NCBI RefSeq assembly: GCF_030816155.1
Contig: NZ_JAUSXR010000001.1
Span: forward strand, 2,976,001 to 3,040,000
Source: Arthrobacter woluwensis
GTDB taxonomy: Bacteria > Actinomycetota > Actinomycetes > Actinomycetales > Micrococcaceae
Length of the DNA stretch: 64,000 nucleotides
Direction: 5' to 3'
The position numbers and the translations under genes were made by a program. Below are positions 7,422-52,801 of the stretch, piece by piece. Every line of letters starts with the position of its first letter. The stretch's first letter is position 1. The notes beneath the pieces are model-generated. The model was given only the letters and a program-made list of their open reading frames with translations, ran no database searches and was not told the origin of the DNA.

Positions 7422-7491
7422 ATCGACTGCTCCATAGGATGTCGTTTTTCCCCGGAAATCGGGGATTTCGACATCGTATGGAGCAGTCGAT
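7422..7491 (+). repeat. Dispersed 70-bp palindromic repeat, copy A
   Basis: Ends ATCGACTGCTCCATA and its inverted copy; inner half GTCGTTTTTCC...GGATTTCGAC gives the element an orientation (taken here as plus). It lies 15 bases after the purM stop and is followed by TTAAGGGG, an extension shared with copies B and D. Confidence 0.93.
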
Positions 7492-7591
7492 CGTTAAGGG
7501 GGGCCCGCTTCCCGTTCGGTGTCGCACGGTGTGACACGGCCCATGCCAGAATGTGTCCGCACCGCACTCACATCGACTTCTGGAGGAATCC

Positions 7592-8227
7592 TTGACCGAG
7601 AACACCGCCGCCTCCGATCGACCCCGTCCAGAAGGGGACCCCCGGGACGCCATCGATTGGACGCAACCGCAGTCCTGGGAGCAGCCCCGGTACGGCGTCC
7701 GCTCGTCCGCAGACGTTCCGCCCTGGCACCCGGAGGCCAATGCGCAGCAGCGTGCGGCCGCCGTCCCGCCGGAGCCGGCACCCGGCGAGGATGTCCTGCG
7801 GGGAGCCCTGTTCGCGCTGGTGGTTCTCCCGCTCGGCATCATCGTCTGGATGCTGCTGTGGGAGGTGCATGTGATCGCGTCGATCGTCACCTTCGGCGTG
7901 GCCGCCGGCGCCGCGCGTCTCTACGTCGTCGGCACCAGGGGCCGCCTGAGCCGCACCGGGGTCTGGGTGATCGTGGGCATCACCGTCGCCACCGCGATTC
8001 TGGCATTCGTCGGCGGAGTCTGGCTCGACGCCGTCGACTTCCTGGGCGGTTCCCCTCTCGCCAGGATCTTCGGCCCGGAGCCGTGGCGCCTCATGGCAGC
8101 CAACCTCGCGTCGAACCCCGACTTCGTCAAGGGCTATTCGGGCGATCTGCTCATGTCCCTCGCCTTCGGCGCGCTGGGCTGCTTCTTAACCCTTCGTCGC
8201 CTCTTCGCGGCCACCCGTAATCGCTGA
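7592..8227 (+). CDS. Four-TM membrane protein of unknown function
   Basis: A 211-residue protein with a ~70-residue hydrophilic, Pro/Arg-rich N-terminus (WTQPQSWEQPRYGVRSSADVPPWHPEA) followed by about four hydrophobic segments (ALFALVVLPLGIIVWMLL, VIASIVTFGVAAGAARLYVV, VWVIVGITVATAILAFVGGVWL, and LLMSLAFGALGCFLTL near the end). TTG at 7592 is chosen because TGGAGGA lies five bases upstream; the GTG at 7553 has no ribosome site. It looks like a monocistronic gene between two repeat copies. No family recognised; likely a conserved actinobacterial hypothetical. Confidence 0.75.
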   Translation: MTENTAASDRPRPEGDPRDAIDWTQPQSWEQPRYGVRSSADVPPWHPEANAQQRAAAVPPEPAPGEDVLRGALFALVVLPLGIIVWMLLWEVHVIASIVTFGVAAGAARLYVVGTRGRLSRTGVWVIVGITVATAILAFVGGVWLDAVDFLGGSPLARIFGPEPWRLMAANLASNPDFVKGYSGDLLMSLAFGALGCFLTLRRLFAATRNR

Positions 8228-8250
8228 GCCTTCCACCACCCTCAAAAAAG

Positions 8251-8320
8251 ATCGACTGCTCCATACGATGTCGAAATCCCCGATTTCCGGGGAAAAACGA
8301 CACCCTATGGAGCAGTCGAT
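8251..8320 (-). repeat. Dispersed 70-bp palindromic repeat, copy B
   Basis: Same ends as copy A, with the inner half inverted (GTCGAAATCCCC...GGGGAAAAACGAC), so it is in the opposite orientation. It sits exactly between two convergent genes, and its stem is extended by AAAG/CTTT, consistent with use as a bidirectional terminator. Confidence 0.93.
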
Positions 8321-8332
8321 CTTTAAGGTGTG

Positions 8333-9660
8333 CTACTTCAGGCCGAGCTGTGCGGTCGGGACCTTGGCCGTCTCGCGGGCGGTCAGTGCCGACACCGCGG
8401 CGATCACGCAGATGACCGCGGCGAAGATCGACGTCTGGACCCAGCCGCCGGGGCCGGTGCCGCCGATCGCCGAGACGATCGTGGGGGCGAAGCCGGCCAT
8501 GAGGAAGCCGAGCTGGGTTCCCACGGCCAGGCCGGAGAAGCGGACCTGGGTGCTGAACATCTCGCCGTAGAAGGACGGCCAGACCGCGTTCGCCGCCGCA
8601 TAGCCGCACGAGAAGTACACGATGGCCGCCGCGAACATCAGCGGGATGGAGCCGGACTGCAGACTCAGGAAGAACAGCGGCGTCATGACCGCGCTGGACA
8701 GGGCGCCGTAGACGAACAGCGGCTTGCGGCCGAAGCGGTCGGCCAGCGTGCCGAAGAACGGTTGGGTGCCGAGGGCCACCACGTTCGCCACGACCACGAG
8801 CCACAGCGTCACAGTGCTGTCCACATGGGCGACCTGCTTGCCGTAGCTGATGGCGAGCGTTCCGAAGACGGTGCTGATCGCGGCGATGAAGGCGCAGCAG
8901 ACGACGCGGATCACGTCACGCCAGTGATACTTCATCAGCTCGACGAAGGGCAGCCGAGCCTTCTTGGCCTCGGCGAAGGTGGTGTGGGCTCGTGCAGGCT
9001 GCGGCGGATGAAGAACGCGACCACGACGACGGCGGCGCTCAGCCAGAACGGGATGCGCCAGCCGATGCCGTACTTGAGGTCGTCCGGCAAGGCGACGACG
9101 GGGATGAAGGCCAGGGCGGCGAGGATCTGCCCGCCCTGGGTCCCGGTGAGGGTCCACGAGGTGAAGAACGCGCGACGGTCGTCGGGGGCGTGTTCCAGCG
9201 TCATCGAGGAGGCGCCGGCCTGTTCACCGGCCGCGGAGAGCCCCTGGCAGAGGCGTGCGAGGACCAGGAGAGCGGGCGCCCACCAGCCCACCGTCTTGAA
9301 GTCGGGGAGGCAGCCGATGACGAAGGTCGAGGCGCCCATCAGGACCAGGGTGAACATGAGCACCCTCTGTCGTCCGAGACGGTCGCCGAAGTGACCGAGG
9401 AAGACCGCGCCCACGGGCCGGGCGATGTAGGCGAAGCCGAAGGTCGCGAAGGACATGATGGTGGCGTTCGCGTCGGCGCTCGGGAAGAACACCTTGGGGA
9501 AGATCAGCGCCGCGGCGGAGCCGAAGATGAAGAAGTCGTAGTACTCCACCGCGCTGCCGAGGAAGCTGGCCAGGGCGGCCTTCCGGGGAGTGCCGGAGTG
9601 GCCCGCGGCCGCTCCGGAGGGGACGGCGCCCGGCGCTGCGGGCGGAAGGGTCTGGTTCAT
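8333..9660 (-). pseudogene. Metabolite:H+ symporter (MFS, ShiA-like), disrupted by a frameshift
   Basis: The N-terminal part (from ATG 9660, after GAAGGAA) reads SAVEYYDFFIFGSAAALIFP, FGDRLGRQRV and LARLCQGLSAAGEQAGAS, the hallmark of the MHS family that includes the shikimate carrier ShiA. Near 8985, after RRSLHEP, the frame is lost; the family sequence continues in another frame as TTFAEAKKARLPFVELMKYHW through DRFGRKPLFVYG to the end at 8333. A net one-base shift separates the halves. Both halves are otherwise clean, so this is either a recent inactivation or a sequence error. It is divergent from an IclR gene and close to qsuD-qsuB, so shikimate or quinate uptake is the likely original role. 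Confidence 0.8.
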
Positions 9661-9812
9661 GGGATTCCTTCGGTGTGACGGCGATGTCGCATCAGGGTGG
9701 AGTCGCTGGGGTGAATGCGGGCGGCCGGCCCGGATCACGGTTTCGGCTGGCGAGAGAATTCCCGCTCGACAACAGCTTCCGGATCATGAGAGCTGTTGGT
9801 GCGATATAGAAG

Positions 9813-9841
9813 ATTCTGGCTGTGAGCGCCGTCACTGTCAA
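9813..9841 (-). promoter_or_regulatory. Promoter of the MFS gene, overlapped by a small inverted repeat
   Basis: On the minus strand TTGACA (9841-9836) is followed after 17 bases by CAGAAT (9818-9813). The palindrome AGAA-GA-TTCT (9809-9818) covers the -10 box and could be a site for the divergent IclR protein. Confidence 0.5.
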
Positions 9842-9894
9842 GAATTTTTCTCACGATCTAGATATAGCTCTCACAATGTGGCAATCTTCTCTTC

Positions 9895-10665
9895 ATGAGC
9901 GAGAAGGAAACCGGCAAGACGGACATGATCGGCAAGGCGCTGAGTCTGCTGGTGCTGCTGGGCGACGAGCCCCGTGGCGCGAGCGCAGCGGAGCTGGCAC
10001 GCCGATCCGATCTGCCGTTCAGCACCGCCTACCGGCTGCTCGGATCCCTGACGCGGGACGGTTTCGTGGATTACGAGCCCGAGGGGCGGCGGTACCACCT
10101 GGGCCTCCGGGTCTTCCAGTTGGGGCAGCGCGTCTCCAATCACCACGGCTTCGCCGGGACGGCCCGGCCGGTCCTGCAACGGGTCACCGAAGGCACGGGT
10201 GAGGCGACGATCCTCTCCGTCCGGGATCAGCACCGCTACCTGACCGTGAACAAGGTGGACGGCCCCCAGATGTTCCGCGTCACGAGCGACCCCGGACACC
10301 TCGGCCAGCTGCACACGACGGCGGTGGGCAAGGTCCTCGTGGCGTTCGCGCCGGAGGACGAGCGGGAGGCGCTCCTCGACGAGCTGGAGCTGACGCCGCT
10401 GACCGAGCACTCGATCACGGACCGCGAAGCGTTCCGCGCCGAGATCGCCCGCGTCCGGCACCAGGGCTTCGCCCTCATGGACGAGGAGAACGAGATCGGC
10501 ATGCGGGCCATCGCGGTGCCGGTGCTCGCCGGCCACGGCGGCGTGCTCGCGGCCCTCGCCACGGCGGCGCCGGTGTTCCGGATGAGCGTGGAGCAACTGC
10601 AGGGCGCCGTCCCCCTCCTGCGGGACGCGGCGGGCGAGCTGGCCGCGCGCCTGCCGGCACGATGA
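9895..10665 (+). CDS. IclR family transcriptional regulator
   Basis: A 256-residue regulator. N-terminal helix-turn-helix: MIGKALSLLVLLGDEPRGASAAELARRSDLPFSTAYRLLGSLTRDGFVDYE; C-terminal IclR effector domain with the usual LHTTAVGKVLVAFAP segment and the IAVPVLAGHGGVLAALA strand. The first ATG (9895) has a poor ribosome site; an in-frame ATG at 9925 (MIGKALSL) is a possible alternative. Divergent from the disrupted shikimate-type carrier and 180 bases upstream of qsuD, so it most likely senses a hydroaromatic acid such as shikimate or quinate. This is the first of three IclR genes in the aromatic block. Confidence 0.88.
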   Translation: MSEKETGKTDMIGKALSLLVLLGDEPRGASAAELARRSDLPFSTAYRLLGSLTRDGFVDYEPEGRRYHLGLRVFQLGQRVSNHHGFAGTARPVLQRVTEGTGEATILSVRDQHRYLTVNKVDGPQMFRVTSDPGHLGQLHTTAVGKVLVAFAPEDEREALLDELELTPLTEHSITDREAFRAEIARVRHQGFALMDEENEIGMRAIAVPVLAGHGGVLAALATAAPVFRMSVEQLQGAVPLLRDAAGELAARLPAR

Positions 10666-10727
10666 GCGCCGGGACGAGCGACGCGATGAGCGACGCACTC
10701 GCCCGCAGCGTGACGAGCGCGCCGAGC

Positions 10728-10753
10728 GCGACGCCAGTTCGCGACGCCAGTTC
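10728..10753. repeat. 13-bp tandem duplication beside the qsu operator
   Basis: GCGACGCCAGTTC occurs twice head-to-tail (10728-10740, 10741-10753). The end of the second unit forms part of the operator that starts at 10750. Confidence 0.8.
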
Positions 10754-10764
10754 GCGATACGAAC
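10750..10764. promoter_or_regulatory. IclR/PcaR-type operator upstream of qsuD
   Basis: GTTCGCGATACGAAC: inverted repeat GTTCG-N5-CGAAC, 15 bp. The same pattern occurs upstream of pcaH, and it matches in length and outline the published 15-bp PcaR/PcaU-type site of pseudomonads (GTTCGATAATCGCAC). It ends two bases before the proposed -35 box of qsuD. Confidence 0.7.
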
Positions 10765-10766
10765 AC

Positions 10767-10797
10767 TTGTACTTGATGTGAACATGGTGTGTACCCT
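10767..10797 (+). promoter_or_regulatory. Putative qsuD promoter
   Basis: TTGTAC (10767-10772) and TACCCT (10792-10797), 19 bases apart, between the operator and the qsuD start. The long spacing and weak -10 suggest a promoter that needs activation, as is usual for PcaR/PcaU-type regulators. Confidence 0.45.
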
Positions 10798-10847
10798 GAG
10801 TCATACCGTCCGGCACTGAACCTCAGGCCGACAAAGGAGCGAAGAGC

Positions 10848-11771
10848 ATGAGCACTCGAGCAGGATCATTCCTGGTGGGCCTGGTGGGCGAAGGGGTACT
10901 TCCGTCCCTCACGCCACCGATGCACGAGCGGGAGGGCGACCGGCAGGGCCTTCGGTACCTCTACCGTCCCCTCGACCTGCTCGAGACAGGCATCCCCGCC
11001 GCCTCGATCGGCGATCTGCTGCACTGGGCCTCCGACCTCGGCTTCAACGGCCTGAACATCACCCACCCCTGCAAGCAGCTCGTGATGGCGCACCTCGACG
11101 AGGTGTCCGAGGATGCCCGGCGGCTCGCCGCAGTGAACACCGTGGTGATCGAGGACGGACGGTTCATCGGCCACAACACCGATTTCTCCGGCTTCGCCCG
11201 CGCCCTCGCCGACGGCCTGCCGGGAGCTTCGCTGGAGCGGGTGGTGCAGCTGGGTGCGGGAGGCGCCGGGTCCGCCGTCGCCTACGCGCTCCTGACCGCC
11301 GGCGTCGGGGTGCTGGATCTGGTGGACACGGACCCCGTCCGGAGCACCGAGCGGGCCGATGGTCTGAGGGAGCTGTTCCCTGGCGCGGTCGTCACCGCAC
11401 ACACCCCGGAAGAGCTGCCGACGCTCCTGCCGCTCGCCGCGGGTCTGGTGCACTGCACGCCCGTCGGGATGGCGGCGCACCCCGGACTGCCGCTGGATCC
11501 GGCGCTGCTGGAACCCCGGCACTGGGTGGCGGACATCGTCTACCGGCCGCTCGAGACCGAACTGGTGCGCCGGGCCCGGGCCATCGGCTGCCGCGTCCTG
11601 GACGGGGGCCGCATGGCGGTGGGCCAGGCCGCCGACGCCTTCCGGCTCTTCACCGGCCGCGAAGCCGACGCCGGGCGCATGCGCGAGCACTTCCTGGAGC
11701 TGATCGCGGCGGAGGACGCCGCAGCCGGCGCGGCCCCGGACAGCACCGCCGCCACGGAAGGGGGCCGCTGA
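10848..11771 (+). CDS. qsuD: Quinate/shikimate dehydrogenase (AroE family)
   Basis: Oxidises quinate or shikimate to 3-dehydroquinate or 3-dehydroshikimate with NAD(P). The 307-residue protein has the substrate-binding SLTPPMHE segment, NITHPCK with the catalytic Lys, AVNTVVIEDGRFIGHNTDFSG with the catalytic Asp, the Rossmann loop QLGAGGAGSAVAYALL, and GMAVGQAADAFRLFTG near the C-terminus. The overlap with the dehydratase gene (TGATG) and the IclR-type operator in front argue for the catabolic QsuD role rather than biosynthetic AroE. Start 10848 follows AAAGGAGCGAAGAGC. Choice between quinate and shikimate as main substrate is open. Confidence 0.85.
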   Translation: MSTRAGSFLVGLVGEGVLPSLTPPMHEREGDRQGLRYLYRPLDLLETGIPAASIGDLLHWASDLGFNGLNITHPCKQLVMAHLDEVSEDARRLAAVNTVVIEDGRFIGHNTDFSGFARALADGLPGASLERVVQLGAGGAGSAVAYALLTAGVGVLDLVDTDPVRSTERADGLRELFPGAVVTAHTPEELPTLLPLAAGLVHCTPVGMAAHPGLPLDPALLEPRHWVADIVYRPLETELVRRARAIGCRVLDGGRMAVGQAADAFRLFTGREADAGRMREHFLELIAAEDAAAGAAPDSTAATEGGR

Positions 11772-13657
11772 TGCGCACGGGAGTCGCCACCGTCTGCCTG
11801 TCCGGCACACTCCGCGAGAAGATGCAGGCCTGCGCCATCGCCGGCTTCGACGGGATCGAGATCTTCGAGCCCGATCTGATCACCTCCCCGCTCAGCCCCG
11901 AGGACGTCCGCACGCTGGCCGCCGACCTCGGCCTCGGCCTGGACCTGTACCAGCCGTTCCGCGATTTCGACAGCGTCCCCGAAAATCTCCTGCGGGAGAA
12001 CCTCCGCCGCGCCGACGCGAAATTCCGCCTCATGTCCCGGCTCGGCATGGACACGATCCTCGTGTGCAGCAACGTCGCCACCGCGCAGATCGACGACGAC
12101 GGCCTGCGCGCCGAGCAGCTCGCCCGCCTCGCGGAGCTGGCCGGTGAGCACGGGGTGAAGGTCGCTTACGAGGCGCTGGCGTGGGGCAAGTACGTCAACG
12201 ACTACGAACACGCGCACCGGCTCGTCGAGATGGTGAACCACCCGAACCTCGGCACCTGCCTGGACTCGTTCCACATCCTCTCCCGGGACTGGGACACCGC
12301 GCCGATCGAGACGTTCGCTCCGGAGAAAATCTTCTTCGTCCAGGTGGCGGACGCCCCGCGCCTCTCCATGGACGTCCTGTCCTGGAGCCGGCACCACCGG
12401 GTATTCCCGGGCGAGGGGCAGTTCGCCCTGGCGAAGTTCATGGGCCACGTGATCCGGGCGGGCTACTCCGGTCCGGTCTCCCTCGAGGTGTTCAACGACG
12501 TCTTCCGGCAGGCCGATGTGGACCGAACCGCGGTGGACGCCATGCGGTCGCTCATCTGGCTGGAGGAGCAGAGCGCGCGCTGGCTCACCGAGCAGAACGG
12601 GGACTCGGAAGGGGCGCGTCGCCGTCGTCATCCGATGGAGCTGGCCACCCTGCCCAGGGTTCCGGAGCCCGCCGGCTTCGACTTCGCCGAGGTGAAGGCC
12701 GAGGACACCGCCGGTCTGGAGACGCTGCTCGGGCACCTCGGCTTCAGTTTCGCGGGGCGTCACCGCACCAAGGACGTCCAGCTCTGGACGCTGGGGCAGG
12801 CGCGCGTCATCATCAACGAGCAGGCGCCCTCCCAGGCCGAGCCCGCGATCGCCGCGCTCGGCTTCGACGTCGAGTCACCGCTGCTCGCCTCCGCCCGCGC
12901 CCAGCAGCTGAAGGCGCCCGCGGTCGCCCGCACGGTCCAGGCCGACGAGGAGGTCTTCCAGGGGGTCTCCGCCCCGGATTCCACGGAGATCTTCCTGTGC
13001 CAGAGCCGGCCCGGCGGGGTGGCCGTGTGGACCCACGAATTCGGTGACGGGGAACGCCCCGGGGAAGCGAACGGCGCCGCGAGGATCGACCACGTGAACC
13101 TGGCACAGCCATGGCAGCACTTCGACGAGGCCGTCCTCTTCTACACGAGCGCCCTGGCCCTGGAACCCGCGCCGTTCGCGGAGGTGCCCAGCCCCACCGG
13201 CCTGGTCCGTTCGCAGGTCATGCAGACCTCGGACCGTGCCGTGCGCCTGGTGCTCAATCTCGCGCCCGTGATCCAGCAGGGCCTCGGTGCGGGCGGGAAC
13301 CCGGGCCGCAAGACCTACCAGGAGCACATCGCCTTCGCCGTGGACGACCTCGTGTCCACGGCTCGCGCGGCGAAGGACCGCGGGCTGGAATTCTTGCCCA
13401 TCCCCGCCAACTACTACGAGGACCTGGACGCCCGGTTCCAGCTCGATCCGGACTTCCTGGCCACCCTCCGGAACCTCGATCTCCTCTACGACCGCGACGG
13501 CGACGGCGAGTTCCTGCACTTCTACACCGCCACGGTGGGCAGCGTCTTCTTCGAGATGGTGGAGCGACGCGGCGGCTATGACGGCTACGGCGCCGCGAAC
13601 GCCCCGGTCCGCCACGCCGTCCAGTACGACGCCCGTCAGGACCGGCCGTCCGCCTGA
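11771..13657 (+). CDS. qsuB: 3-dehydroshikimate dehydratase, two-domain QsuB type
   Basis: Converts 3-dehydroshikimate to protocatechuate, linking the shikimate pool to the beta-ketoadipate pathway. Two domains: residues 1-280 are a sugar-phosphate isomerase-like TIM barrel (FDGIEIFEPDLITSPLSPEDV, YEALAWGKYVNDYEHAHRLV, CLDSFHILS), which carries the dehydratase activity in characterised homologues; residues ~300-620 resemble 4-hydroxyphenylpyruvate dioxygenase (two VOC modules) with the His-His-Glu metal ligands apparently retained in RIDHVNLAQPW, YQEHIAFAVDD and FFEMVERRGGYDGYG. The length of 628 matches the fused QsuB form. Translationally coupled to qsuD through TGATG. Confidence 0.88.
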   Translation: MRTGVATVCLSGTLREKMQACAIAGFDGIEIFEPDLITSPLSPEDVRTLAADLGLGLDLYQPFRDFDSVPENLLRENLRRADAKFRLMSRLGMDTILVCSNVATAQIDDDGLRAEQLARLAELAGEHGVKVAYEALAWGKYVNDYEHAHRLVEMVNHPNLGTCLDSFHILSRDWDTAPIETFAPEKIFFVQVADAPRLSMDVLSWSRHHRVFPGEGQFALAKFMGHVIRAGYSGPVSLEVFNDVFRQADVDRTAVDAMRSLIWLEEQSARWLTEQNGDSEGARRRRHPMELATLPRVPEPAGFDFAEVKAEDTAGLETLLGHLGFSFAGRHRTKDVQLWTLGQARVIINEQAPSQAEPAIAALGFDVESPLLASARAQQLKAPAVARTVQADEEVFQGVSAPDSTEIFLCQSRPGGVAVWTHEFGDGERPGEANGAARIDHVNLAQPWQHFDEAVLFYTSALALEPAPFAEVPSPTGLVRSQVMQTSDRAVRLVLNLAPVIQQGLGAGGNPGRKTYQEHIAFAVDDLVSTARAAKDRGLEFLPIPANYYEDLDARFQLDPDFLATLRNLDLLYDRDGDGEFLHFYTATVGSVFFEMVERRGGYDGYGAANAPVRHAVQYDARQDRPSA

Positions 13658-13687
13658 GCGGCGCGGCCCGGCACGAGGAGGTGTCCC

Positions 13688-14437
13688 ATGGCGAACTCCG
13701 CATCCGGTGACTCCGTGGTGGACCGCGTGGTGCGGCTGCTGGCCGCCTTCCCGGAAGGCACCCCACGGCTCAGCCTCTCCGACCTCGCGGCCCGGGCGGG
13801 GCTTCCGCTGTCCTCCGCGCATCGCCTCGTCCGGCAGATGAGCGATCACGGGCTCCTCGACGTCGAGGAGGGCGGCGCGGTCAAGCCCGGGCTGCGCCTC
13901 TGGGAACTCGTCAGCAGGAACGCGCCCACCCTGGAACTGCGCACCGTGGCCCTGCCGTTCATGGAGGACATCCAGCAGGTGCTCCGGCAGAACGTGAACC
14001 TCGCCGTGCTGGATGGGCAGGACGCCTTGTTCGTGGAGCGGCTCTCCCGGCCGGGCTCCGTGACGAACCGCGCGACGGTCGCGGGCCGGCTTCCCGTGTA
14101 CATCTCCTCGGCGGGTCTGGCGCTCATGGCGTTCCAGCCCCGCGAGGTCCAGGCGGAGTACGTGACGCGGCAGATCCTCGCCGGCGCCGTGCCGGAGGAC
14201 GAACTCCGCCAGCGGCTCGCGGAGACCGCCCGCAACGGGTATGCCCAACTCGTGGGGATCCTCGACCCCGAGACGTCGGGCATCGCCGCACCCGTGCTCG
14301 ACCCGCAGGGCCACGCGGTGGCCGCGCTCGGCGTCGTCGTCCCGGTGACGGAGGTGCGCCTCCGGGAGATCGTGGCGGCGCTCCAGGGCGCGGCGCAGGG
14401 CGTGCGGCGCGGCCTGGAGACGATCCGGCGGGCTTAG
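13688..14437 (+). CDS. IclR family transcriptional regulator
   Basis: A 249-residue protein with an N-terminal helix-turn-helix (VVDRVVRLLAAFPEGTPRLSLSDLAARAGLPLSSAHRLVRQMSDHGLLD) and a C-terminal IclR effector domain (LPVYISSAGLALMAF, IAAPVLDPQGHAVAALGVVVP). It starts 30 bases after qsuB behind GAGGAGGTG, so it is probably the last gene of the qsu operon. Its stop codon overlaps the stop of the convergent aromatic-acid transporter by three bases. It may control qsuDB, the transporter or pobA. Confidence 0.87.
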   Translation: MANSASGDSVVDRVVRLLAAFPEGTPRLSLSDLAARAGLPLSSAHRLVRQMSDHGLLDVEEGGAVKPGLRLWELVSRNAPTLELRTVALPFMEDIQQVLRQNVNLAVLDGQDALFVERLSRPGSVTNRATVAGRLPVYISSAGLALMAFQPREVQAEYVTRQILAGAVPEDELRQRLAETARNGYAQLVGILDPETSGIAAPVLDPQGHAVAALGVVVPVTEVRLREIVAALQGAAQGVRRGLETIRRA

Positions 14438-15690
14438 TCCACCGGGCGCGACGTCGGGACGAACAGCAGCGCGGCCAGCGCGGCCACCGCGGCGAGGGCG
14501 AACACGTAGAAGCCCCACGGGTAGGCGATGCCTCCGGCGACGAGCGCTCCCGTGACGGCCGGCCCCAGAATCGCCCCCACGCGGCCCACGCCCGCGGAGA
14601 ATCCGAGCGCGGTGCCCGTGAGTTCACGGGGGAAGAGCTGGCTCACCCACGCGTACACCAGGACCTGCGCGCTGAACACGAACACCCCGGTGACGAAGAC
14701 GGCCAGGTCGAGCAGGATCTCGTTCTGGAGCTTCAGGCTGAGCAGGGCGAGCAGCACCGCGGCCAGGCCGAACCAGAGCAGGGTGATCCGCTTGGTGCCG
14801 TGCCGGTCAGCGAGCCAGCCGGCCAGCAGGAGCCCCGCCACGGCACCGAGATTCAGGATGAACAGCAGGGCGAGGGACGAGCTCATCGAGTACCCGGCAC
14901 TCGCCATGAGGGTCGGGAGCCAGGTGTTCAGGCCGTACACGAGCAGCAGCCCCATGAAGGACGCGGCCGCGATGCCCGCCGCGATGAGCGGGTACGGCTT
15001 CCGCAGCAGGACCTTCAGGCCCGGCTTCGCGCCGCCGTCGGCCACCGCCTGGCCGCCCTCGGAGGCGCCCACGGCGAGCCGGTCCACGGTGGTGTCCGGC
15101 AGCCGGAACCACAGGATCGGCGCGAGGACGAGCCCGGCGACGCCGCCGATCACGAACACGGCCCGCCAGTTGGGAATGAGGGCCAGCGCGAGCAGCGACG
15201 TCACGACGGCGCCGGCGTGATAGCCGGTCATGGTGCGGGTGGTGGCACGGGCGGCGGAGGACGCGGGGGCGAAGTCGTTCATGTAGGCCAGGGCCGCGGG
15301 CAGGCAGGCGCCGAGCCCGACGCCGGCGAGCAGCCGGAAGGCGCTGAAGACCGCGACGTTCGGCGCCACGGTCACGGCCAGGGTGAAGACGGAGAACCAC
15401 AGCACGCAGGCGACCAGAAGGCGCTTACGGCCGAAGCGGTCGGAGAGGGGCGCGATGAAGAGCGCGCCGAGTCCCACGCCCACGAGCGAGAGGGTGGCGG
15501 CCAGGGTGGCCCCTGCAGGATCGAAACCGAGGTCCTTGCTCTTGAGCAGGGTCGGGATCACGGCTCCGAGGACCACCAGGTCGAAGCCGTCCAGCACCAT
15601 GGCCAGCCAGCAGAGGGCGGCCGGCCCGGAGGACCGGGGGCGGGACTGGGCGAGGGAAGGGGACGGCGGGGAGGGGGACGGCATTGTCAC
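14434..15690 (-). CDS. pcaK: Aromatic acid:H+ symporter (MFS, PcaK-like)
   Basis: Twelve-helix MFS carrier of about 418 residues for uptake of aromatic acids such as 4-hydroxybenzoate or protocatechuate. Diagnostic of the AAHS family is the first-helix motif LDGFDLVVLGAVIPTLL, followed by SLVGVGLGALFIAPLSDRFGRKRLL and, after helix 8, GWLADRHGTKR. The start is placed at GTG 15690 because AGGAGG lies seven bases upstream; the ATG six bases further in has poor spacing. Divergent from pobA with a palindromic operator between them, so both are likely induced together by 4-hydroxybenzoate. The symbol reflects family, not proven substrate. Confidence 0.82.
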   Translation of the reverse strand: MTMPSPSPPSPSLAQSRPRSSGPAALCWLAMVLDGFDLVVLGAVIPTLLKSKDLGFDPAGATLAATLSLVGVGLGALFIAPLSDRFGRKRLLVACVLWFSVFTLAVTVAPNVAVFSAFRLLAGVGLGACLPAALAYMNDFAPASSAARATTRTMTGYHAGAVVTSLLALALIPNWRAVFVIGGVAGLVLAPILWFRLPDTTVDRLAVGASEGGQAVADGGAKPGLKVLLRKPYPLIAAGIAAASFMGLLLVYGLNTWLPTLMASAGYSMSSSLALLFILNLGAVAGLLLAGWLADRHGTKRITLLWFGLAAVLLALLSLKLQNEILLDLAVFVTGVFVFSAQVLVYAWVSQLFPRELTGTALGFSAGVGRVGAILGPAVTGALVAGGIAYPWGFYVFALAAVAALAALLFVPTSRPVD

Positions 15691-15759
15691 GAAAGGACCT
15701 CCTGAAGGGGATGGGTGTGAGAGGTGTATCACTTTCCCAACCCGGTCCGGAACGCGGTT

Positions 15760-15774
15760 TTCCATTGAATGGAA
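15760..15774. promoter_or_regulatory. Palindromic operator between the PcaK-like gene and pobA
   Basis: TTCCATT-G-AATGGAA is a perfect 7-1-7 inverted repeat, 70 bases from the transporter start and 97 bases from the pobA start. It differs from the GTTCG-N5-CGAAC sites of the qsu and pca operons, so a different regulator is expected. Confidence 0.6.
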
Positions 15775-15870
15775 CAGGACTTGGTCCAGAAGGTGATCCG
15801 GAGCACACTCGTCAGAGTCGTTCCGGGCCGATCCGATGAGGGGTCGGTCCCTGCCGAAAGAGAGGCGCCC

Positions 15871-17061
15871 ATGAGCCAGACCGAGACCCTCCGCACCCAG
15901 GTGGCCATCGTGGGAGGCGGCCCCGCGGGGCTCATGCTGTCCCATCTGCTGGCCACCCGCGGCATCGAATCCGTGGTGCTGGAGGCCCGCAGCCGCCAGG
16001 CGATCCACGAGACGGTCCGCGCCGGCATCCTCGAACACGGCACCGTGAATCTGCTGGTGGACTCGGGGGTCTCCGACCGGGTGCTGCGCGAGGGCGACCG
16101 GCACGACGGCATCGAACTCCGCTTCGACGGCGAGAGCCACCGCATCGACTTCCAGGAACTCGTGGGGGAATCGGTGTGGCTGTACCCGCAGACCGAGGTG
16201 TTCGCCGACCTCGCCGCACGACGGGAGGCCGACGGCGGCGACGTCCGGTACGGGGTGTCCGGCGTGACGGTGCACGACGTCGCCTCCGATCCCCGGGTCA
16301 CGTTCACGGACGCCGAGGGCCGGGACGTCGAGCTGCGCGCCGATTTCGTGGTGGGCGCGGACGGGTCCCGCAGCCACTGCCGGGGGCTGATCCCGGAGGA
16401 CCGCCGTCACCGGTACTTCAAGGAGTACCCCTTCGCCTGGTTCGGCATCCTCGCCGAAGCGCCCCGCAGCGCGGACGAGCTGATCTACGCGAACTCACCC
16501 CAGGGCTTCGCGCTCATCAGCCAGCGGACCGAGACCATGCAGCGGATGTACTTCCAGTGCGACCCCGGCGAGTCGGCCGCCGACTGGGACGACGAGCGCA
16601 TCTGGGCCACGCTCCGCGAGCGCGTGAACGGCAACGGCTTCGAACTGGTGGAGGGTCCGGTGCTGGAGAAGGTGGTGCTCCCGTTCCGGAGTTTCGTCCA
16701 GGCGCCCCTGCGTCACGGGAAGCTCTTCCTGGCGGGCGATGCCGCTCACACCGTGCCGCCGACCGGCGCCAAGGGCCTCAACCTCGCCCTCCACGACGTC
16801 AGGATGCTCTTCGAAGCTCTCGACTCCTTCTACACCGGCGGTTCGGAGGACCTGCTCGACGGCTACAGCGAGCGCGCCCTCGGGCGGGTCTGGAAGGCTC
16901 AGCACTTCTCCTCCTGGATGACGTCCCTGCTGCATGCGGCCCCGGGCGAGAGTGATTTCGACCGGGCCCGCCGGCGGGGCGAGCTCGACTCGGTCGTCTC
17001 CTCAGCCCACGGCCGGGCGTATCTGGCCGAGTCGTACACGGGGTGGCCGGACCGTGGGTGA
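15871..17061 (+). CDS. pobA: 4-hydroxybenzoate 3-monooxygenase
   Basis: FAD-dependent class A hydroxylase that converts 4-hydroxybenzoate to protocatechuate using NAD(P)H and oxygen. The 396-residue protein shows the dinucleotide loop TQVAIVGGGPAGLMLSHLLA, the DG motif ADFVVGADGSRSHCR and the second FAD motif LFLAGDAAHTVPPTGAKGLNLALHD; RAGILEHGTVNLL near the N-terminus is typical of PobA. The ATG at 15871 follows AGAGAGG; a longer in-frame start at 15769 would lie inside the operator region and is rejected. Its product feeds directly into pcaHG immediately downstream. Confidence 0.95.
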   Translation: MSQTETLRTQVAIVGGGPAGLMLSHLLATRGIESVVLEARSRQAIHETVRAGILEHGTVNLLVDSGVSDRVLREGDRHDGIELRFDGESHRIDFQELVGESVWLYPQTEVFADLAARREADGGDVRYGVSGVTVHDVASDPRVTFTDAEGRDVELRADFVVGADGSRSHCRGLIPEDRRHRYFKEYPFAWFGILAEAPRSADELIYANSPQGFALISQRTETMQRMYFQCDPGESAADWDDERIWATLRERVNGNGFELVEGPVLEKVVLPFRSFVQAPLRHGKLFLAGDAAHTVPPTGAKGLNLALHDVRMLFEALDSFYTGGSEDLLDGYSERALGRVWKAQHFSSWMTSLLHAAPGESDFDRARRRGELDSVVSSAHGRAYLAESYTGWPDRG

Positions 17062-17094
17062 GGGCCGCCGTCGTCGCGCATCCGATGCCGTGTT

Positions 17095-17142
17095 GTTCGC
17101 TAGACGAACACTAGTGCGTTATTCGAACGTCCCGGGTATGCT
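17095..17142 (+). promoter_or_regulatory. Tandem IclR/PcaR-type operators and promoter of the pca operon
   Basis: Site 1 GTTCGCTAGACGAAC (17095-17109) and site 2 GTGCGTTATTCGAAC (17114-17128, one mismatch) both fit GTTCG-N5-CGAAC, with centres 19 bases apart. TATGCT at 17137-17142 is a plausible -10 box; the -35 region lies within site 2 and is poor, as expected for an activated promoter. The qsuD promoter has the same 15-bp motif. Confidence 0.72.
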
Positions 17143-17235
17143 GGATCACACAGCGCCCGGTTCGCCCCCGGTCCCCACCGTCGAACCCCTCCCCGACCGC
17201 TCTCAGACCCGACCACTTCCCGAAAGGAGCCGGCC

Positions 17236-18063
17236 ATGACCTCAGGGCCCCGCACCGTGCACCCTGACCCCGACGCCGCAGCGGAGACGCAGGCCGATCT
17301 CAACGCCGAGATCGCAGCGACCGCCGCCTCCTACCGCGAGGAGCTCCTCGGCGGCGCCGCCCCGGAGACCCAGCCGCGGCTCGACTTCGCGCCGTACCGC
17401 AGCTCGATCCTGCGCCACCCCACCAAGAGCCTGCACCACGCGGACCCGGAGACCATCGAGCTGTTCTCCCCCGCGTTCGGGCACCAGGACGTCCACGCGC
17501 TGGAATCGGACCTGACCATCCAGCACAACGGCGAACCCCTCGGCGAGCGGATCATCGTCTCCGGCAAGGTCCTCGACGGCGACGGCCGCCCCGTGGCCGG
17601 GCAGCTCGTGGAGATCTGGCAGGCCAACGCGGCCGGGCGCTACATCCACAAGCGGGACCAGCACCCCGCGCCCCTCGATCCGAACTTCACGGGCGTCGGC
17701 CGCTGCATCACCGGCGAAGACGGCTCCTACCGCTTCGTCACCATCAAGCCCGGCGCCTATCCGTGGAAGAACCACCTCAACGCGTGGCGCCCGGCCCACA
17801 TCCACTTCTCGCTCTTCGGTTCCGAGTTCACGCAGCGCATCGTCACCCAGATGTACTTCCCGGGGGACCAGCTCTTCCCGCTGGACCCCATCTACCAGTC
17901 GATCGTGGACCAGGACGCGCGGGATCGCCTCGTGGCCCGCTACGATCACGACCTCACCCGCCCCGAATGGGCCCTCGGCTACAACTGGGACATCGTCCTG
18001 ACGGGCGCCCACCGGACCTGGACCGAGAACGAAGCCTTCGGCGACGCCGGAGACGAGGAGTAG
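17236..18063 (+). CDS. pcaH: Protocatechuate 3,4-dioxygenase beta subunit
   Basis: Iron-binding subunit of the intradiol enzyme that cleaves protocatechuate to 3-carboxy-cis,cis-muconate. The 275-residue protein has the N-terminal helper segment (RSSILRHPTKSLHHADPETIELFSP), the GQLVEIWQANAAGRYIHKRD strand with the first Tyr ligand, GAYPWKNHLNAWRP with the second Tyr, and PAHIHFSLFG with both His ligands, so the Tyr2-His2 ferric centre is complete. Start 17236 has GAAAGGAG just upstream. First gene of an eight-gene operon in which successive genes overlap or nearly touch. Confidence 0.97.
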   Translation: MTSGPRTVHPDPDAAAETQADLNAEIAATAASYREELLGGAAPETQPRLDFAPYRSSILRHPTKSLHHADPETIELFSPAFGHQDVHALESDLTIQHNGEPLGERIIVSGKVLDGDGRPVAGQLVEIWQANAAGRYIHKRDQHPAPLDPNFTGVGRCITGEDGSYRFVTIKPGAYPWKNHLNAWRPAHIHFSLFGSEFTQRIVTQMYFPGDQLFPLDPIYQSIVDQDARDRLVARYDHDLTRPEWALGYNWDIVLTGAHRTWTENEAFGDAGDEE

Positions 18064-18069
18064 ACCGCC

Positions 18070-18669
18070 ATGACCGAACAGACCCCGGGCACCCTCACCG
18101 CCACCCCCGGCCAGACCGTGGGGCCGTTCTTCGGCTACGCCCTGCCGTTCCCGAAGGACAACGAACTGCTGGCCCCCGGCACCCCCGGTTCCATCCGCCT
18201 GCAGGGCACCGTGTACGACGGCGCCGGCCACCCGGTCCCGGACGCCATCCTCGAGATCTGGCAGCCGGACAGCGCGGGCCGGGTCCCGCGCCGCACCGGC
18301 TCGCTCGTGCGGGACGGCTACACCTTCACCGGCTGGGGCCGCGCCTCCACGGGGAACACCGGCCGCTTCACCTTCACCACCGTGAACCCGGGCCCCACCG
18401 AGGAAGGCGCCGCCGCGTTCATCGCCGTCGCGGTGTTCGCCCGCGGCCTCATGAACCGCCTGTTCACGCGGATCTACCTCCCGGAGCACCCGGAGTACCT
18501 CGTCACGGACCCCCTGCTCTCGTCGCTGCCGGAGGACCGCAGGGAGACCCTGGTCGCGCGGCGCGACGCCGACGGCGGCCTCAGCTGGGACGTCCGGCTG
18601 CAGGGCGACGGCGAGACCGTCTTCCTGGACTTCGAGGGCACCTCCACCCCGACGGGGGCGTTCCGGTGA
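18070..18669 (+). CDS. pcaG: Protocatechuate 3,4-dioxygenase alpha subunit
   Basis: Partner of PcaH; forms the alpha-beta unit and part of the substrate pocket without carrying iron. The 199-residue protein begins with the typical TPGQTVGPFFGYALPF, then VPDAILEIWQPDSAGRVP, GWGRASTGNTGRFTFTTVNPG and FIAVAVFARGLMNRLFTRIYLPE. As expected for the alpha chain, the tyrosine and histidine iron ligands of PcaH are not conserved. It starts six bases after pcaH and its stop codon overlaps the GTG of pcaB (GTGA). Confidence 0.95.
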   Translation: MTEQTPGTLTATPGQTVGPFFGYALPFPKDNELLAPGTPGSIRLQGTVYDGAGHPVPDAILEIWQPDSAGRVPRRTGSLVRDGYTFTGWGRASTGNTGRFTFTTVNPGPTEEGAAAFIAVAVFARGLMNRLFTRIYLPEHPEYLVTDPLLSSLPEDRRETLVARRDADGGLSWDVRLQGDGETVFLDFEGTSTPTGAFR

Positions 18670-20108
18670 CGGACTTCGGACTGCTGAGCGCCGTCACGGC
18701 GTCCCCCGAGGTCGAGGCCCTGACCGGGGACCGCGCCGTGCTGACCGCGCTGCTCGATGTGGAGAGCACCTGGTCCACCGTGCTGGAGGACGCCGGGCTC
18801 GTCCCGGCCGGGGCTGCGGACGCCGTCGCGGAGGCCGCAGACCCGGACCTGTACGACCCGGCGTCGCTCGCCCGGCAGGCACAGGGCGGGGGCAACCCTG
18901 TGATCCCGCTGGTCGCCGCGCTCAAGGCGCAGGTCCGCGGGATCGACGCCGCCGCCGTGAAGGCCGTGCACGCCTCGCTGACCAGCCAGGACGTGCAGGA
19001 CTCCGCCCTCATGCTGCTGGCAGCCCGGGTGCGCGCGGAGCTGCTCCGCGAACTCTCCCGCACCACGACGGCGCTCGCCCGGCTCTCGGAGGAGCACGCG
19101 GACACGCTGTGCGTGGGGCGCAGCCTGGGCCAGCACGCGCTGCCGTACACCTTCGGCCTCAAGGCGGCCCAGTGGCTCCAGGGTCTGACCTCCGCCGGCC
19201 GCCGGCTCGGCGAGGCCACCCTGCCCGCGCAATTCGGCGGGGCCGTCGGCACGCTCGCGTCCGCCACGCTGCTCACCGCGGGATCCTCCGCCACCCCGTT
19301 CGCCCTGGCACAGGACCACGCCGCCCGGCTCGGGCTCGCCACGGCCCACGTGCCCTGGCACGGCGACCGCCAGCCGGTGACGGTCCTGGGCGACGCCCTC
19401 GCGGGGGTGCTGGACGCGGCCGGCAAGATCGCCGGCGACGTCCTGTTCCTCACCCGTCCCGAGGTCGCAGAGCTGGGCGAACCGACCGGGGCGGGCCGCG
19501 GCGTGTCCTCGGCCATGCCGCAGAAGCAGAACCCCGTGCTGTCCGTCCTCCTCCGCAGCGCCGCGCTCCAGGGACCCACCTTCGCTTCGCAGCTGCACCT
19601 CGCCGCAGGACTCTTCAACGACGAACGGGCCGACGGCGCCTGGCACAGCGAGTGGCCCGCCCTCCGGTCCCTGCTGGGCCTCTCGCTGGGCGCGGTGCTC
19701 ACCTTGCGCGAAATGATCGAAGGCCTGCGTGTCTTCCCCGACGCCATGCGCCGCAACCTGGATCTCACCGGTCCGCTGCTGCTGAGCGAAAAGGTCAAGG
19801 CCGCCGTCGGGCCGCTGCTCGGTGATGCCGGGCAGGAGGCTCTGCAAGCAGTCGTCGACGCCGCGCTCCGGGAATCCCCCGAGCGGCGAGCGGAGGCTTA
19901 CGCCCGCGAACTCCGTGCGGCGGTGCCGGCCGAGGCCCTGAGCGACGACGCCCTCGCGCAGCTGCTCGACCCCGCCGGCTACGTCGGGGAAGCCGAGGAG
20001 ATCCGCCGCAGGATCCTCGGCTCCCTCCCGGACACCGTCGGCTCCCAGGACACCCTCGACGCCCAGGACGCACCCAACTCCCTGGACGAAGGAGCCACTC
20101 GTGACTGA
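18666..20108 (+). CDS. pcaB: 3-carboxy-cis,cis-muconate cycloisomerase
   Basis: Lactonises 3-carboxy-cis,cis-muconate to 4-carboxymuconolactone. At ~480 residues it belongs to the fumarase/aspartase superfamily: the signature GVSSAMPQKQNPV is present, with SLTSQDVQDSALMLLAARV and RSLGQHALPYTFGLKAAQWL as the other conserved helices. GTG at 18666 gives a four-base overlap with pcaG. The C-terminus has a ~25-residue Asp/Ser-rich tail (LPDTVGSQDTLDAQDAPNSLDEG) beyond the family core. Its stop overlaps the start of pcaD. Confidence 0.94.
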   Translation: MTDFGLLSAVTASPEVEALTGDRAVLTALLDVESTWSTVLEDAGLVPAGAADAVAEAADPDLYDPASLARQAQGGGNPVIPLVAALKAQVRGIDAAAVKAVHASLTSQDVQDSALMLLAARVRAELLRELSRTTTALARLSEEHADTLCVGRSLGQHALPYTFGLKAAQWLQGLTSAGRRLGEATLPAQFGGAVGTLASATLLTAGSSATPFALAQDHAARLGLATAHVPWHGDRQPVTVLGDALAGVLDAAGKIAGDVLFLTRPEVAELGEPTGAGRGVSSAMPQKQNPVLSVLLRSAALQGPTFASQLHLAAGLFNDERADGAWHSEWPALRSLLGLSLGAVLTLREMIEGLRVFPDAMRRNLDLTGPLLLSEKVKAAVGPLLGDAGQEALQAVVDAALRESPERRAEAYARELRAAVPAEALSDDALAQLLDPAGYVGEAEEIRRRILGSLPDTVGSQDTLDAQDAPNSLDEGATRD

Positions 20109-20922
20109 CACGATCGACACCGCAGCCCCGGCCCTCAAGGCGGTCCTGCTCTCGCCCCGCCGTGACCTCGGAGACCGGCCGCTCCTGGTGCTCGGCCCGT
20201 CCCTCGGCACCTCCACCGTGCTCTGGAATGAGACCGCGGCCCTGCTCGCGGAGGAGTACGACGTGATCGGCTGGGACCTCCCGGGCCACGGTGTCTCCCC
20301 GGCCGCCGAGCGCCCGTTCCGCATGGAGGACCTCGCCGCCTCGGTGCTGTCGCTGGTGGACTCCATCGCCCCCGGCGCCCGATTCCACTACGCGGGGGTC
20401 TCCCTCGGCGGCGCAGTGGGTCTCCAGCTCGCGCTCGACCACGGCGACCGGCTGCTCGGCCTGTCCGTGCAGTGCAGCGGCCCCAAGCTCGCCACGGAGG
20501 AGAGCTGGCTCGAACGGGCCGGCACCGTCCGGACCCAGGGCACGGCCGTCATGATCCAGGGATCCGCGCAGCGCTGGTTCGCGGCGGGATTCATGGAACG
20601 CCGGCCGGAACAGAGCAGCCGTCTGCTGCACGTCCTGCGGGACACCGAGCGGAACAGTTACGCCGCGTGCTGCGAGGCACTCGCCGCCTTCGACGTCCGT
20701 GACCGCCTGGGCGGCATCACCGTTCCCGTGCAGCTCGTCGCCGGCGCCGAAGATCAGGTGGCGCCGCCGTCGCTCGCCGAGGAGACCGCAGCGGCCATCA
20801 CCGCGGGAGGTGGCAAGGCGACCGTCGAGGTGCTCGACGGCGTCGCCCACCTCGCGCCGACTGAGGCGCCTGAGACGGTCGCCGCCCTGCTCCGTTCCTT
20901 CCTCCAGGAGGTCTCCGCATGA
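20101..20922 (+). CDS. pcaD: 3-oxoadipate enol-lactonase
   Basis: Hydrolyses beta-ketoadipate enol-lactone to beta-ketoadipate. The 273-residue alpha/beta hydrolase has the oxyanion-loop region VLGPSLGTSTVLWNE, the nucleophile elbow GVSLGGAVGLQLAL, the acid in LVAGAEDQVAPP and the catalytic His in LDGVAHLAPTEAPE. GTG start overlapping pcaB by eight bases. In many actinobacteria this enzyme is fused to PcaC as PcaL; here the two are separate genes joined by an ATGA overlap. Confidence 0.93.
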   Translation: MTDTIDTAAPALKAVLLSPRRDLGDRPLLVLGPSLGTSTVLWNETAALLAEEYDVIGWDLPGHGVSPAAERPFRMEDLAASVLSLVDSIAPGARFHYAGVSLGGAVGLQLALDHGDRLLGLSVQCSGPKLATEESWLERAGTVRTQGTAVMIQGSAQRWFAAGFMERRPEQSSRLLHVLRDTERNSYAACCEALAAFDVRDRLGGITVPVQLVAGAEDQVAPPSLAEETAAAITAGGGKATVEVLDGVAHLAPTEAPETVAALLRSFLQEVSA

Positions 20923-21356
20923 GTGAACAGCCACAGGATTCCGCACGTAACGGGGCCGTCCAGCCGGACGCCACCGCGCGCCAGATCCACGACGCCGGCA
21001 TGGTGGTCCGCCGCGAAGTCCTCGGGGACGCCCACGTGGACCGGGCCAACGCCGCCAAGAACGAGTTCACCGAGGACTTCCAGGACATGATCACCCGCAT
21101 CGCCTGGGGCGGGATCTGGACCCGGCCCGGGCTGTCCCGGCAGATGCGCTCCGCCGTGACCCTGACCGCCATGGTGGCGCATGGTCACTGGGAGGAGTTC
21201 GCCATGCACGTCCGCGCGGCGCTGCGGAACGGTCTGACCCGCGAGGAGATCAAGGAGATCCTCCTGCAGACCGCCATCTATTGCGGGGTCCCTTCCGCCA
21301 ACACCGCTTTCAAGACCGCACAGCAGGTCTTCGCAGAAATGGATCAGCCCTCATGA
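20919..21356 (+). CDS. pcaC: 4-carboxymuconolactone decarboxylase
   Basis: Decarboxylates 4-carboxymuconolactone to the enol-lactone used by PcaD. The 145-residue protein contains the typical DAGMVVRREVLGDAHVDRANAA opening, ITRIAWGGIWTRPGLSRQMRSAVTLTAMVAHGHWEEFAMHVRAALRNG and the C-terminal IKEILLQTAIYCGVPSANTAFKTAQQVF block of the AhpD-like fold. It overlaps both neighbours by four bases. Gene order D-C is the reverse of reaction order and preserves the arrangement seen in fused PcaL proteins in split form. Confidence 0.95.
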   Translation: MSEQPQDSARNGAVQPDATARQIHDAGMVVRREVLGDAHVDRANAAKNEFTEDFQDMITRIAWGGIWTRPGLSRQMRSAVTLTAMVAHGHWEEFAMHVRAALRNGLTREEIKEILLQTAIYCGVPSANTAFKTAQQVFAEMDQPS

Positions 21357-23909: not shown

Positions 23910-23971
23910 GCCTGGAGGTACAGGCTGACCCCGCGAGGCCTCCGCGGAGCGGCCACATAGGATAGGTGATC

Positions 23972-37870: not shown

Positions 37871-37940
37871 ATCGACTGCTCCATAGGATGCCGAAATCCC
37901 GGGAAATCCGGAGAAAACGACATCCTATGGAGCAGTCGAT
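37871..37940 (-). repeat. Dispersed 70-bp palindromic repeat, copy D
   Basis: Same ends as copies A-C; inner half GCCGAAATCCCGG...GAGAAAACGAC gives minus orientation. Followed by GGTTAAGG; TTAAAAACCC precedes it, so the palindrome extends about 8 bases further on each side. Placed between two convergent genes. Confidence 0.93.
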
Positions 37941-52197: not shown

Positions 52198-52204
52198 GGT
52201 CCCG

Positions 52205-52235
52205 ACGCTACGACCTCAACTATGGTTGAGGTCAA
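52205..52235 (-). promoter_or_regulatory. SoxR box and 19-bp-spaced promoter
   Basis: GACCTCAAC-TATG-GTTGAGGTC (52212-52233) is a perfect 9-4-9 palindrome containing the SoxR core CCTCAA...TTGAGG. On the minus strand TTGACC (52235-52230) and TAGCGT (52210-52205) flank it with a 19-base spacer, as in MerR-family promoters that need DNA twisting by the activator. Confidence 0.88.
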
Positions 52236-52258
52236 AGCCCTGAGCGAGGAGTATCCGC

Positions 52259-52711
52259 ATGCCCCAGATCCACGGCGGGAAACAGCACGAACTGAGCATC
52301 GGGGAACTGTCCGCCCGCAGCGGCGTGCCGGTCTCCGCGCTCCACTTCTACGAGCGCCAGGGCCTCCTGCGCGCCGAGCGGAACAGCCTCAACCAGCGGC
52401 GTTACTCCCGGGACGCGCTTCGCCGGGTCGCGTTCATCCGCACGGCGCAGCGCGTGGGGATGGCGCTCAAGGACATCGGCGCGGCGCTGGACTCGCTCCC
52501 GGAGCAGCGCACGCCCACCAAGCGCGACTGGGCCCGGCTCTCCCGCCTCTGGCGCGAAGAGCTCGACGCCCGGATCGCCGCCCTCACACACCTCCGGGAC
52601 GACCTGGACTCCTGCATCGGCTGCGGCTGCCTCAGCCTGAAACGCTGCGCACTCCAGAACCCCGACGACGAACTCGGCCGCACCGGCAGCGGCCCGGTCC
52701 TCTGGGAGTAA
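52259..52711 (+). CDS. soxR: Redox-sensing MerR family regulator SoxR
   Basis: 150 residues: MerR helix-turn-helix ELSIGELSARSGVPVSALHFYERQGLLRAERNSLNQRRYSRDALRRVAFIRTAQRVGMALKDIGAALDSL, a dimerisation helix, and cysteines at 119, 122, 124 and 130 giving C-x2-C-x-C-x5-C (CIGCGCLSLKRC) for the [2Fe-2S] cluster. All four ligands are present, so it should be active and respond to redox-cycling compounds. Start 52259 follows GAGGAG. Divergent from the MFS exporter it very probably controls through the box at 52212-52233. Confidence 0.95.
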   Translation: MPQIHGGKQHELSIGELSARSGVPVSALHFYERQGLLRAERNSLNQRRYSRDALRRVAFIRTAQRVGMALKDIGAALDSLPEQRTPTKRDWARLSRLWREELDARIAALTHLRDDLDSCIGCGCLSLKRCALQNPDDELGRTGSGPVLWE

Positions 52712-52730
52712 GCTCGGCCCTCCCCTCTCG

Positions 52731-52801
52731 ATCGACTGCTCCATACGAGGCTCCCAACCCGGCGTGTCGCGGGGAGAACGACTTCCTGTGGAGCAGTCGA
52801 T
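52731..52801 (-). repeat. Dispersed palindromic repeat, copy E (degenerate)
   Basis: Keeps both ends ATCGACTGCTCCATA / GGAGCAGTCGAT but the middle is diverged (GAGGCTCCCAACCCGGCG); GAGAACGAC near the right arm suggests minus orientation. It is the least conserved copy. Located 20 bases after the soxR stop. Confidence 0.85.

Follow-up and report, generated by a model that had tools for sequence, protein, structure and literature searches.

Palindromic hairpins with fixed arms behind the ends of Arthrobacter genes: place, flips and segments gained or lost between copies

Terminators and relics of transposition are the two usual explanations for extragenic palindromes. Here we describe a dispersed family of hairpins of about 70 nt that fits neither explanation alone, starting from five copies in a 64,000-nt stretch of the Arthrobacter woluwensis genome (contig NZ_JAUSXR010000001.1, C1:2976001-3040000, hereafter the window; genome G000, 3.51 Mb). 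The family has fixed arms with no transposase known for them, stems that vary in compensation, interiors that flip in place, and genes gained or lost at the hairpins; on balance we lean towards reading it as an old family of sequence-specific, two-way 3'-end elements (terminators or boundaries) reshaped by hairpin-driven recombination. The three species compared below, with shared loci and mostly ~90-97% identical flanks, form a natural series in which to study why repeated palindromes stay alike and whether gene exchange is channelled by terminator hairpins.

In integrons, one gene and its attC palindrome are gained or lost as a unit, as are the hairpin-bounded segments described below; in contrast, the Arthrobacter hairpins are dispersed over the chromosome, their segments have leaders of their own and no cassette array was seen, integrases not having been searched for. 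In plastid genomes, a short stretch between inverted repeats reportedly flips between species, giving small inversions at hairpins; to our knowledge, and unlike the Arthrobacter hairpins, these do not form a dispersed family with fixed arms. Uptake signals are said to come in lineage dialects, as do the arms of our hairpins. In Neisseria and Pasteurellaceae, an uptake word set as an inverted pair makes a terminator hairpin, which is similar to the fixed arms found here, but according to the passages of that study used here such words generally reach at least 1,000 copies (PMC1852404), whereas the Arthrobacter arm word counts ~80-90 arms per genome and is nearly confined to hairpins. Among 295 matches to the 12-nt arm with up to one mismatch in the fetched stretches of four genomes, 44 fell outside the hairpins listed, and several of these were within degraded ones. 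An uptake sequence was ruled out, the copies being too few.

Repetitive extragenic palindromes (REPs) with their REPtrons (GTAG plus RAYT) and the CGTC-tagged repeats, the latter described as apparently without a dedicated transposase, are likewise short dispersed palindromes with alternative complementary residues in the stem (PMC3733652, in part). The Arthrobacter hairpins differ in their length of 60-71 nt, their fixed 12-nt arm, and the lack of a GTAG or CGTC tag, and no Y1 transposase was found in the genus. The terms Arthrobacter, Micrococc- and Actinobacteria do not occur in the main text of that paper (PMC3733652). The RepRanger survey, which is k-mer based and by default considers palindromes of 5-32 nt, treats extragenic palindromes widely; a table row for Arthrobacter livingstonensis carries the counts 5,512 and 705, and the passages of the survey used here describe no family like the present one (PMC12306157). 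The searches made of open-licence PMC papers listed none whose title or abstract describes this hairpin family.

Place, number and age of the hairpins

The 15-nt arm ATCGACTGCTCCATA occurs ten times in the window at up to three mismatches, eight times exactly and twice with one mismatch (one arm of copy C and one of copy E), and all ten form five inverted pairs, starting at 7422, 8251, 24819, 37871 and 52731. Shuffled windows gave on average 0.78 arm matches and at most 3. The five repeats were also recovered independently as direct families D1, D7 and D8 with inverted pairs I1-I5, and seven foldings of window hairpins gave z-scores of -5.6 to -12.8. The copies, with genes as predicted by a gene finder written for this analysis (used throughout), are as follows.

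Copy A, 7422..7491, plus strand: 70-nt palindrome with its T-rich interior on the plus strand, 15 nt past the gene at 6273-7406 (AIRS domains)
Copy B, 8251..8320, minus strand: between convergent genes (23 and 12 nt away), a near-exact inverted A, with a T-run after the stem on the minus strand
Copy C, 24819..24888, plus strand: 43 nt past the gene at 23972-24775 (IclR type, PcaR/PcaU/PobR family)
Copy D, 37871..37940, minus strand: between convergent genes (17 and 17 nt away), with GGGTTTTT after the stem on the minus strand
Neighbours of copy D: 37203-37853, metallo-beta-lactamase fold; 37958-39589, DEAD-box helicase
Copy E, 52731..52801, minus strand: 71 nt, the most degenerate interior, 19 nt past the gene at 52259-52711 (MerR type)

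The first-pass annotation of this DNA had proposed five palindromic repeats of about 70 bp in two orientations, all just past gene 3' ends and two of them between convergent genes, with B almost the reverse complement of A, and this description held in each of its parts. The repeats are 70-71 nt long and beyond chance, the T-rich side of the interior places A and C in the plus and B, D and E in the minus orientation, the hairpins lie 12-43 nt past a predicted stop codon, and A read in inverted order differs from B at 1 base in 70. The motif TTAAGG, which had been taken to hint at a longer element, does stand on the right side of three of the five copies (A, B and D); it is probably a downstream-side tail, as tail words of this kind favour the downstream side in tandem copies (see below).

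In the whole G000 genome, the 15-nt word with up to one mismatch gives 77 arms. Of these, 72 have a partner at hairpin distance, and the remaining five belong to hairpins whose second arm is worse. A covariance model matched this genome 86 times over both strands, or about 43 copies (150 of 1848 candidates scored). At an E value of 0.01, it matched two other species of the genus (G001 and G003) 81 and 84 times and Arthrobacter horti YJM1 (G002) 36 times, with 150 candidates scored in each; halving these both-strand matches gives ~43, 40, 42 and 18 copies in the four genomes. Copies of this arm type (type I) are thus found well beyond the window. Of the ~43 in G000, where dnaA lies at 3312554, about 30 fall in the half nearer the origin and just 6 in the interval from 1.0 to 2.5 Mb, with bins picked post hoc and three positions added by hand.

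The stretches fetched around the copies span 449,524 bases of G000, 422,522 of G001, 444,520 of G003 and 158,010 of G002, and 131 copies were listed in them. Behind a predicted gene 3' end lie 126 of them, at a median of 16 nt from the nearest stop codon and in 109 cases within 60 nt. The 131 copies divide into 69 convergent, 57 tandem and 5 divergent positions, against 154, 435 and 203 among 792 intergenic gaps of at least 60 bp in these stretches, and none of 214 long hairpins of all families lies inside a predicted gene (fetched stretches of G000, G001 and G003). Together with the ~43 copies, this supports the proposal of a dispersed, hairpin-forming 3'-end family, REP-like in look. One of the words TTTAA, GTTAA, CTTAA or TTTTT stands within 20 nt downstream in 17 of the 57 tandem copies, and its mirror upstream in 1 of 57; for convergent copies the numbers are 20 and 16 of 69. 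We suggest that the 70-nt repeat, as transcript or as DNA, folds into a long hairpin right behind the stop codon, which would stop or shield transcripts, from both sides where it stands between convergent genes.

Most mapped copies sit at shared positions. Following their flanks into other species, mostly at ~90-97% identity, leads to a copy in the corresponding position, and 23 groups with both flanks mapped have a copy in all three species. For type I, 160 of 175 mapped comparisons find a copy of the same family there; a different hairpin stands at the place in 4 and no hairpin in 11, with 53 further comparisons unmappable and outside the 175. Copies at 161918 and 927652 occur in G000 only, and those at 748330 and 1376461 are missing from G001. 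From other genera (36 hairpins), 18 neighbour proteins have a match in the fetched stretches, and 6 of the 18, from two genera, end near a hairpin there too (for example both genes around 2725800), a share that is inflated because the stretches were chosen around hairpins.

Arm conservation, compensated pairing and flips

The feet of the hairpins read ATCGAC/GTCGAT with varied flanks, as judged by inspection of the copy listing. In 46 orthologous pairs of 70-nt copies, the 12+12 arm bases differ at 2.1% per site, whereas the adjoining paired positions 13 and 14 differ at 37% and 46% (13, 14, 57 and 58 range from 37 to 46%), and the interior (24-47) differs at 24% as placed; divergence and flip counts exclude G002. 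Because not only the pairing of the arms but also their sequence is conserved, the 12-nt arms (ATCGACTGCTCC and its complement) are probably read by a putative factor. Arm dialects differ between genomes, with ATA at positions 13-15 in 58 of 80 arms in G000, 21 of 78 in G001 and 25 of 70 in G003.

Where the stem varies, it tends to vary on both sides. In 54 relatives of 60 nt (2 of 56 rows omitted), both-side changes fill 109 cells compared with 47.2 (sd 5.8) when shuffled and at most 19 when slid, and pair 17-44 of this form appears as C-G 16, G-C 15, A-U 9, U-A 4 and G-U 2 times, with 8 unpaired. For 95 copies (92 distinct) of the 70-nt form, the count is 65 against 35.6, and at most 25 when slid; this alignment omits 9 look-alike pairs, two G002 rows and, of the remaining 104, nine copies of 60, 73 or 77 nt. 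Such compensation could also arise if one arm corrects the other during replication, and is therefore no proof of a folded function. Ectopic conversion and selection on the arms are inseparable in these data.

The interiors flip in place. Among 55 orthologous pairs, 13 have interiors that agree better after inversion, 10 of them by at least five bases (7 of 31 loci), with the placed orientation favoured as much in 39; these calls take the G003 contigs to be reversed relative to G000 and G001 at the loci, as flank mapping shows. Owing to the flips, core divergence between orthologues is 17% when the better of the two orientations is taken compared with 24% as placed, and the two orientations seen in the window are explained in the same way.

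Hairpins are also replaced at the same locus. Of 35 groups, 9 mix hairpins of the 60-nt class with longer ones. A hairpin whose arms read ATCGACTG, with a different interior, stands at 908563 instead of the type found in G001 and G003, and near 2991774 in G003 a left half of that type is joined to a right half of type I. As the arms are near-identical genome-wide and each copy is an inverted repeat, copies may exchange with and correct each other and invert where they stand; both the flips and the segment changes described below would then stem from recombination or template switching. Two other hairpin families swap at one gene end as well (G000:C1:909938 versus G001:C1:1152207 and G003:C3:2831516).

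Segments between hairpins and competing readings

Two stretches bounded by hairpins in the window are variable between species.

A-B segment, 7492..8250: one gene of 211 aa without a Pfam match
B-C segment, 8321..24818: 16.5 kb with a quinate/shikimate and protocatechuate (beta-ketoadipate) cluster

The A-B segment is missing in G003, where a single hairpin joins the left flank of A to the right flank of B. The B-C segment is missing in G001, with one hairpin at the junction, while G003 has the segment without copy C. Its genes match shikimate/quinate dehydrogenase, dehydroshikimate dehydratase, 4-hydroxybenzoate hydroxylase, muconate cycloisomerase and oxoadipyl-CoA thiolase, as well as transporters and IclR-type regulators, with matches partly above and partly below the NCBI cut-offs. 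Within it, the overlapping minus-strand frames 8333-9157 and 8935-9660 both match parts of an MFS transporter and are perhaps one frame-broken gene.

At six further places a segment next to hairpins or between them varies (429583 and 3229294 in G001; 2730108, 2755192, 2641362 and 684172 in G000). A single predicted gene lies in each of 12 of the 13 variable segments examined, with leaders of ~90-250 bp, once ~420, and the ten segments scanned with Pfam gave GT87, DUF1275, GNAT and DUF5107 along with genes without assignment. One hairpin remains in the segment-free species in some cases and two in others, and at 684172-684802 in G000 the segment is bounded by hairpins of two different families. 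The hairpins may thus act as junctions where genes between two of them are lost or gained; for loss, repeat-to-repeat recombination together with selection keeping one terminator would be enough. Among 44 pairwise indels of at least 400 bp, a type-I hairpin lies within 40 bp of both ends in 9 (five places) and of at least one end in 16, with 6-9% of intergenic bases that near to type I. For long hairpins of all families the numbers are 11 and 26 of 44, with 16-21% of intergenic bases that near. Separately, an 8.9-kb segment at 41769-50678 (genome 3017769-3026678) is missing from both G001 and G003; it has no type-I hairpin at its ends and another long hairpin near the right one.

Several of our results weigh against two-way 3'-end elements reshaped by recombination. 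The conservation of the arms is partly built in because the copies were found by their arms; 28 of the 44 indels touch no type-I hairpin, some events among the 44 are counted twice and the regions were chosen around hairpins. A T-run is missing from most copies, and an intrinsic-terminator scan, a simple one that counts up to 20 pairs, calls none of A, B and D. On the transcribed strand, G-U pairs (52) are no commoner than A-C mismatches (49), so that an RNA hairpin is not shown as the selected form, and selection on the RNA strand was dropped as an explanation. The T side of the interior shows no link to transcription either (19 same, 17 opposite, 10 neither), and interior orientation was dropped as a transcription signal at 19:17.

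One competitor, ordinary intrinsic terminators whose likeness comes from duplication and gene conversion alone and whose arms have no reader, we regard as unlikely. It accounts for the place behind stop codons, for T-rich tails in a share of the copies and for the one-base difference between A and B, as recent conversion would give, and terminator-bounded segments would simply be natural transcription units. For a terminator, however, pairing suffices, yet the arms are near-fixed while paired positions 13-14 diverge; the same arms recur in other genera (although found by a model of the arms), and the scan just mentioned calls none of three window copies. The terminator role in the first-pass annotation agrees with place and tail words, but a plain terminator leaves fixed arms, flips and hairpin-bounded segments unexplained. 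A non-autonomous mobile element, MITE- (miniature inverted-repeat transposable element) or REP-like, with a transposase that is rare, lost or of unrecognised kind, is doubtful but somewhat easier to entertain. The 12-nt arms would be its terminal inverted repeats, and the 3'-end bias would reflect target choice or purging elsewhere. A multi-copy family with species dialects fits this, as do the patchy occurrence in the order (26 of 396 genomes, 10 of 110 genera), presence or absence at 161918, 927652, 748330 and 1376461, and, at the last of these in G003, a CTTGTCTTAA word doubled on one side of the hairpin. On the other hand, Y1_Tnp was found in none of the four genomes at an E value of 0.01, in a search that covered Y1 transposases only and whose control was positive in 6 of 14 known genomes including E. 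coli, and no larger element with these arm ends was seen in G000, where the remaining five of the 77 arms lie in degraded hairpins. No constant target duplication appeared at the four type-I sites just named or at four aligned sites of other hairpin families, in species-level alignments with ragged edges. Most mapped positions are common to the species and some to genera, which by the annotation's own refuting condition speaks for terminators and weakens its mobile-element part, although a few places do differ; neither a REP/RAYT-like system with a transposase sharing the ends nor a recently active MITE found support. Both were ruled out as classes, REP/RAYT by the lack of Y1_Tnp in the four genomes and of a GTAG or CGTC tag at the foot, and a classic MITE by the lack of constant duplication and the shared positions.

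Readings that give the hairpins a recombination system of their own are less probable still. The hairpins could, with a rather low probability, be sites of an undescribed recombination system of Micrococcales, in which a putative protein would bind the lineage-specific arms on a folded strand, turn the interior round and swap units of one gene plus its hairpin; chromosomal genes would then be traded as cassettes without an integron, and the arms (dialect) and the centre TCGTTNTGAG, common to several lineages, would be two recognition parts. We find it slightly harder to believe in integron-like cassette sites, where a recombinase acts on folded arms and moves such units. Segments that are nearly always one predicted gene, the one- and two-hairpin states at several loci and the segment at 684172-684802, bounded by two families, all point in that direction, whereas no cassette array was seen in the fetched stretches (integrases were not searched for), the leaders are unlike promoterless cassettes, some breakpoints fall outside the hairpin and ordinary deletion by recombination between repeats suffices.

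Reach of the family and other hairpins

An arm search of related Micrococcaceae had been proposed with the first-pass annotation, and such hairpins are indeed present in other species and other genera. Under strict filtering, and with only a few candidates from each genome scored, model R2 matched 18 of 197 family genomes and 8 of 32 genera at an E value of 0.001, and for the order model R3 gave matches in 10 of 110 genera (26 of 396 genomes) at 0.0001; R1, an automatic consensus structure with only 11 pairs, was left out. A strict two-arm pattern matched 4 of 59 genomes searched, all of the genus, so that the covariance models reach further. Of ten contig matches, four (Polyangiaceae, Streptomyces, Myxococcota and Janibacter) were rejected as chance pairs on inspection of the sequence and the other six were A. 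horti.

Hairpins from the order's other families carry outer arms of a different sequence, with the centre TCGTTNTGAG, or nearly so, kept in several and partly in others. Such hairpins with other arms may be of one lineage or convergent, and the model favours TCGTTNTGAG-type centres. Two plasmids (Arthrobacter and Paenarthrobacter) carry such a hairpin with other arms between aceA and aceB. Phage searches with 60-nt and 36-nt queries gave no match. Rfam gave no match at gathering score in the window, and in seven related loci all matches stayed below that score, almost every one to a miRNA hairpin (best E 2e-7); a known RNA family was ruled out for want of a match at gathering score.

The window holds other near-perfect long hairpins at 54768-54834, 35723-35781, 3932-3992 and 57620-57689. 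The first three belong to dispersed families (GAAACAGTG..., TTGTGTGCTCAGTTGTTGCGGG... and CGCGAACCGCCAGTAG..., respectively) with copies elsewhere in the genus, which has some five or six long-hairpin families of ~60-70 nt each.

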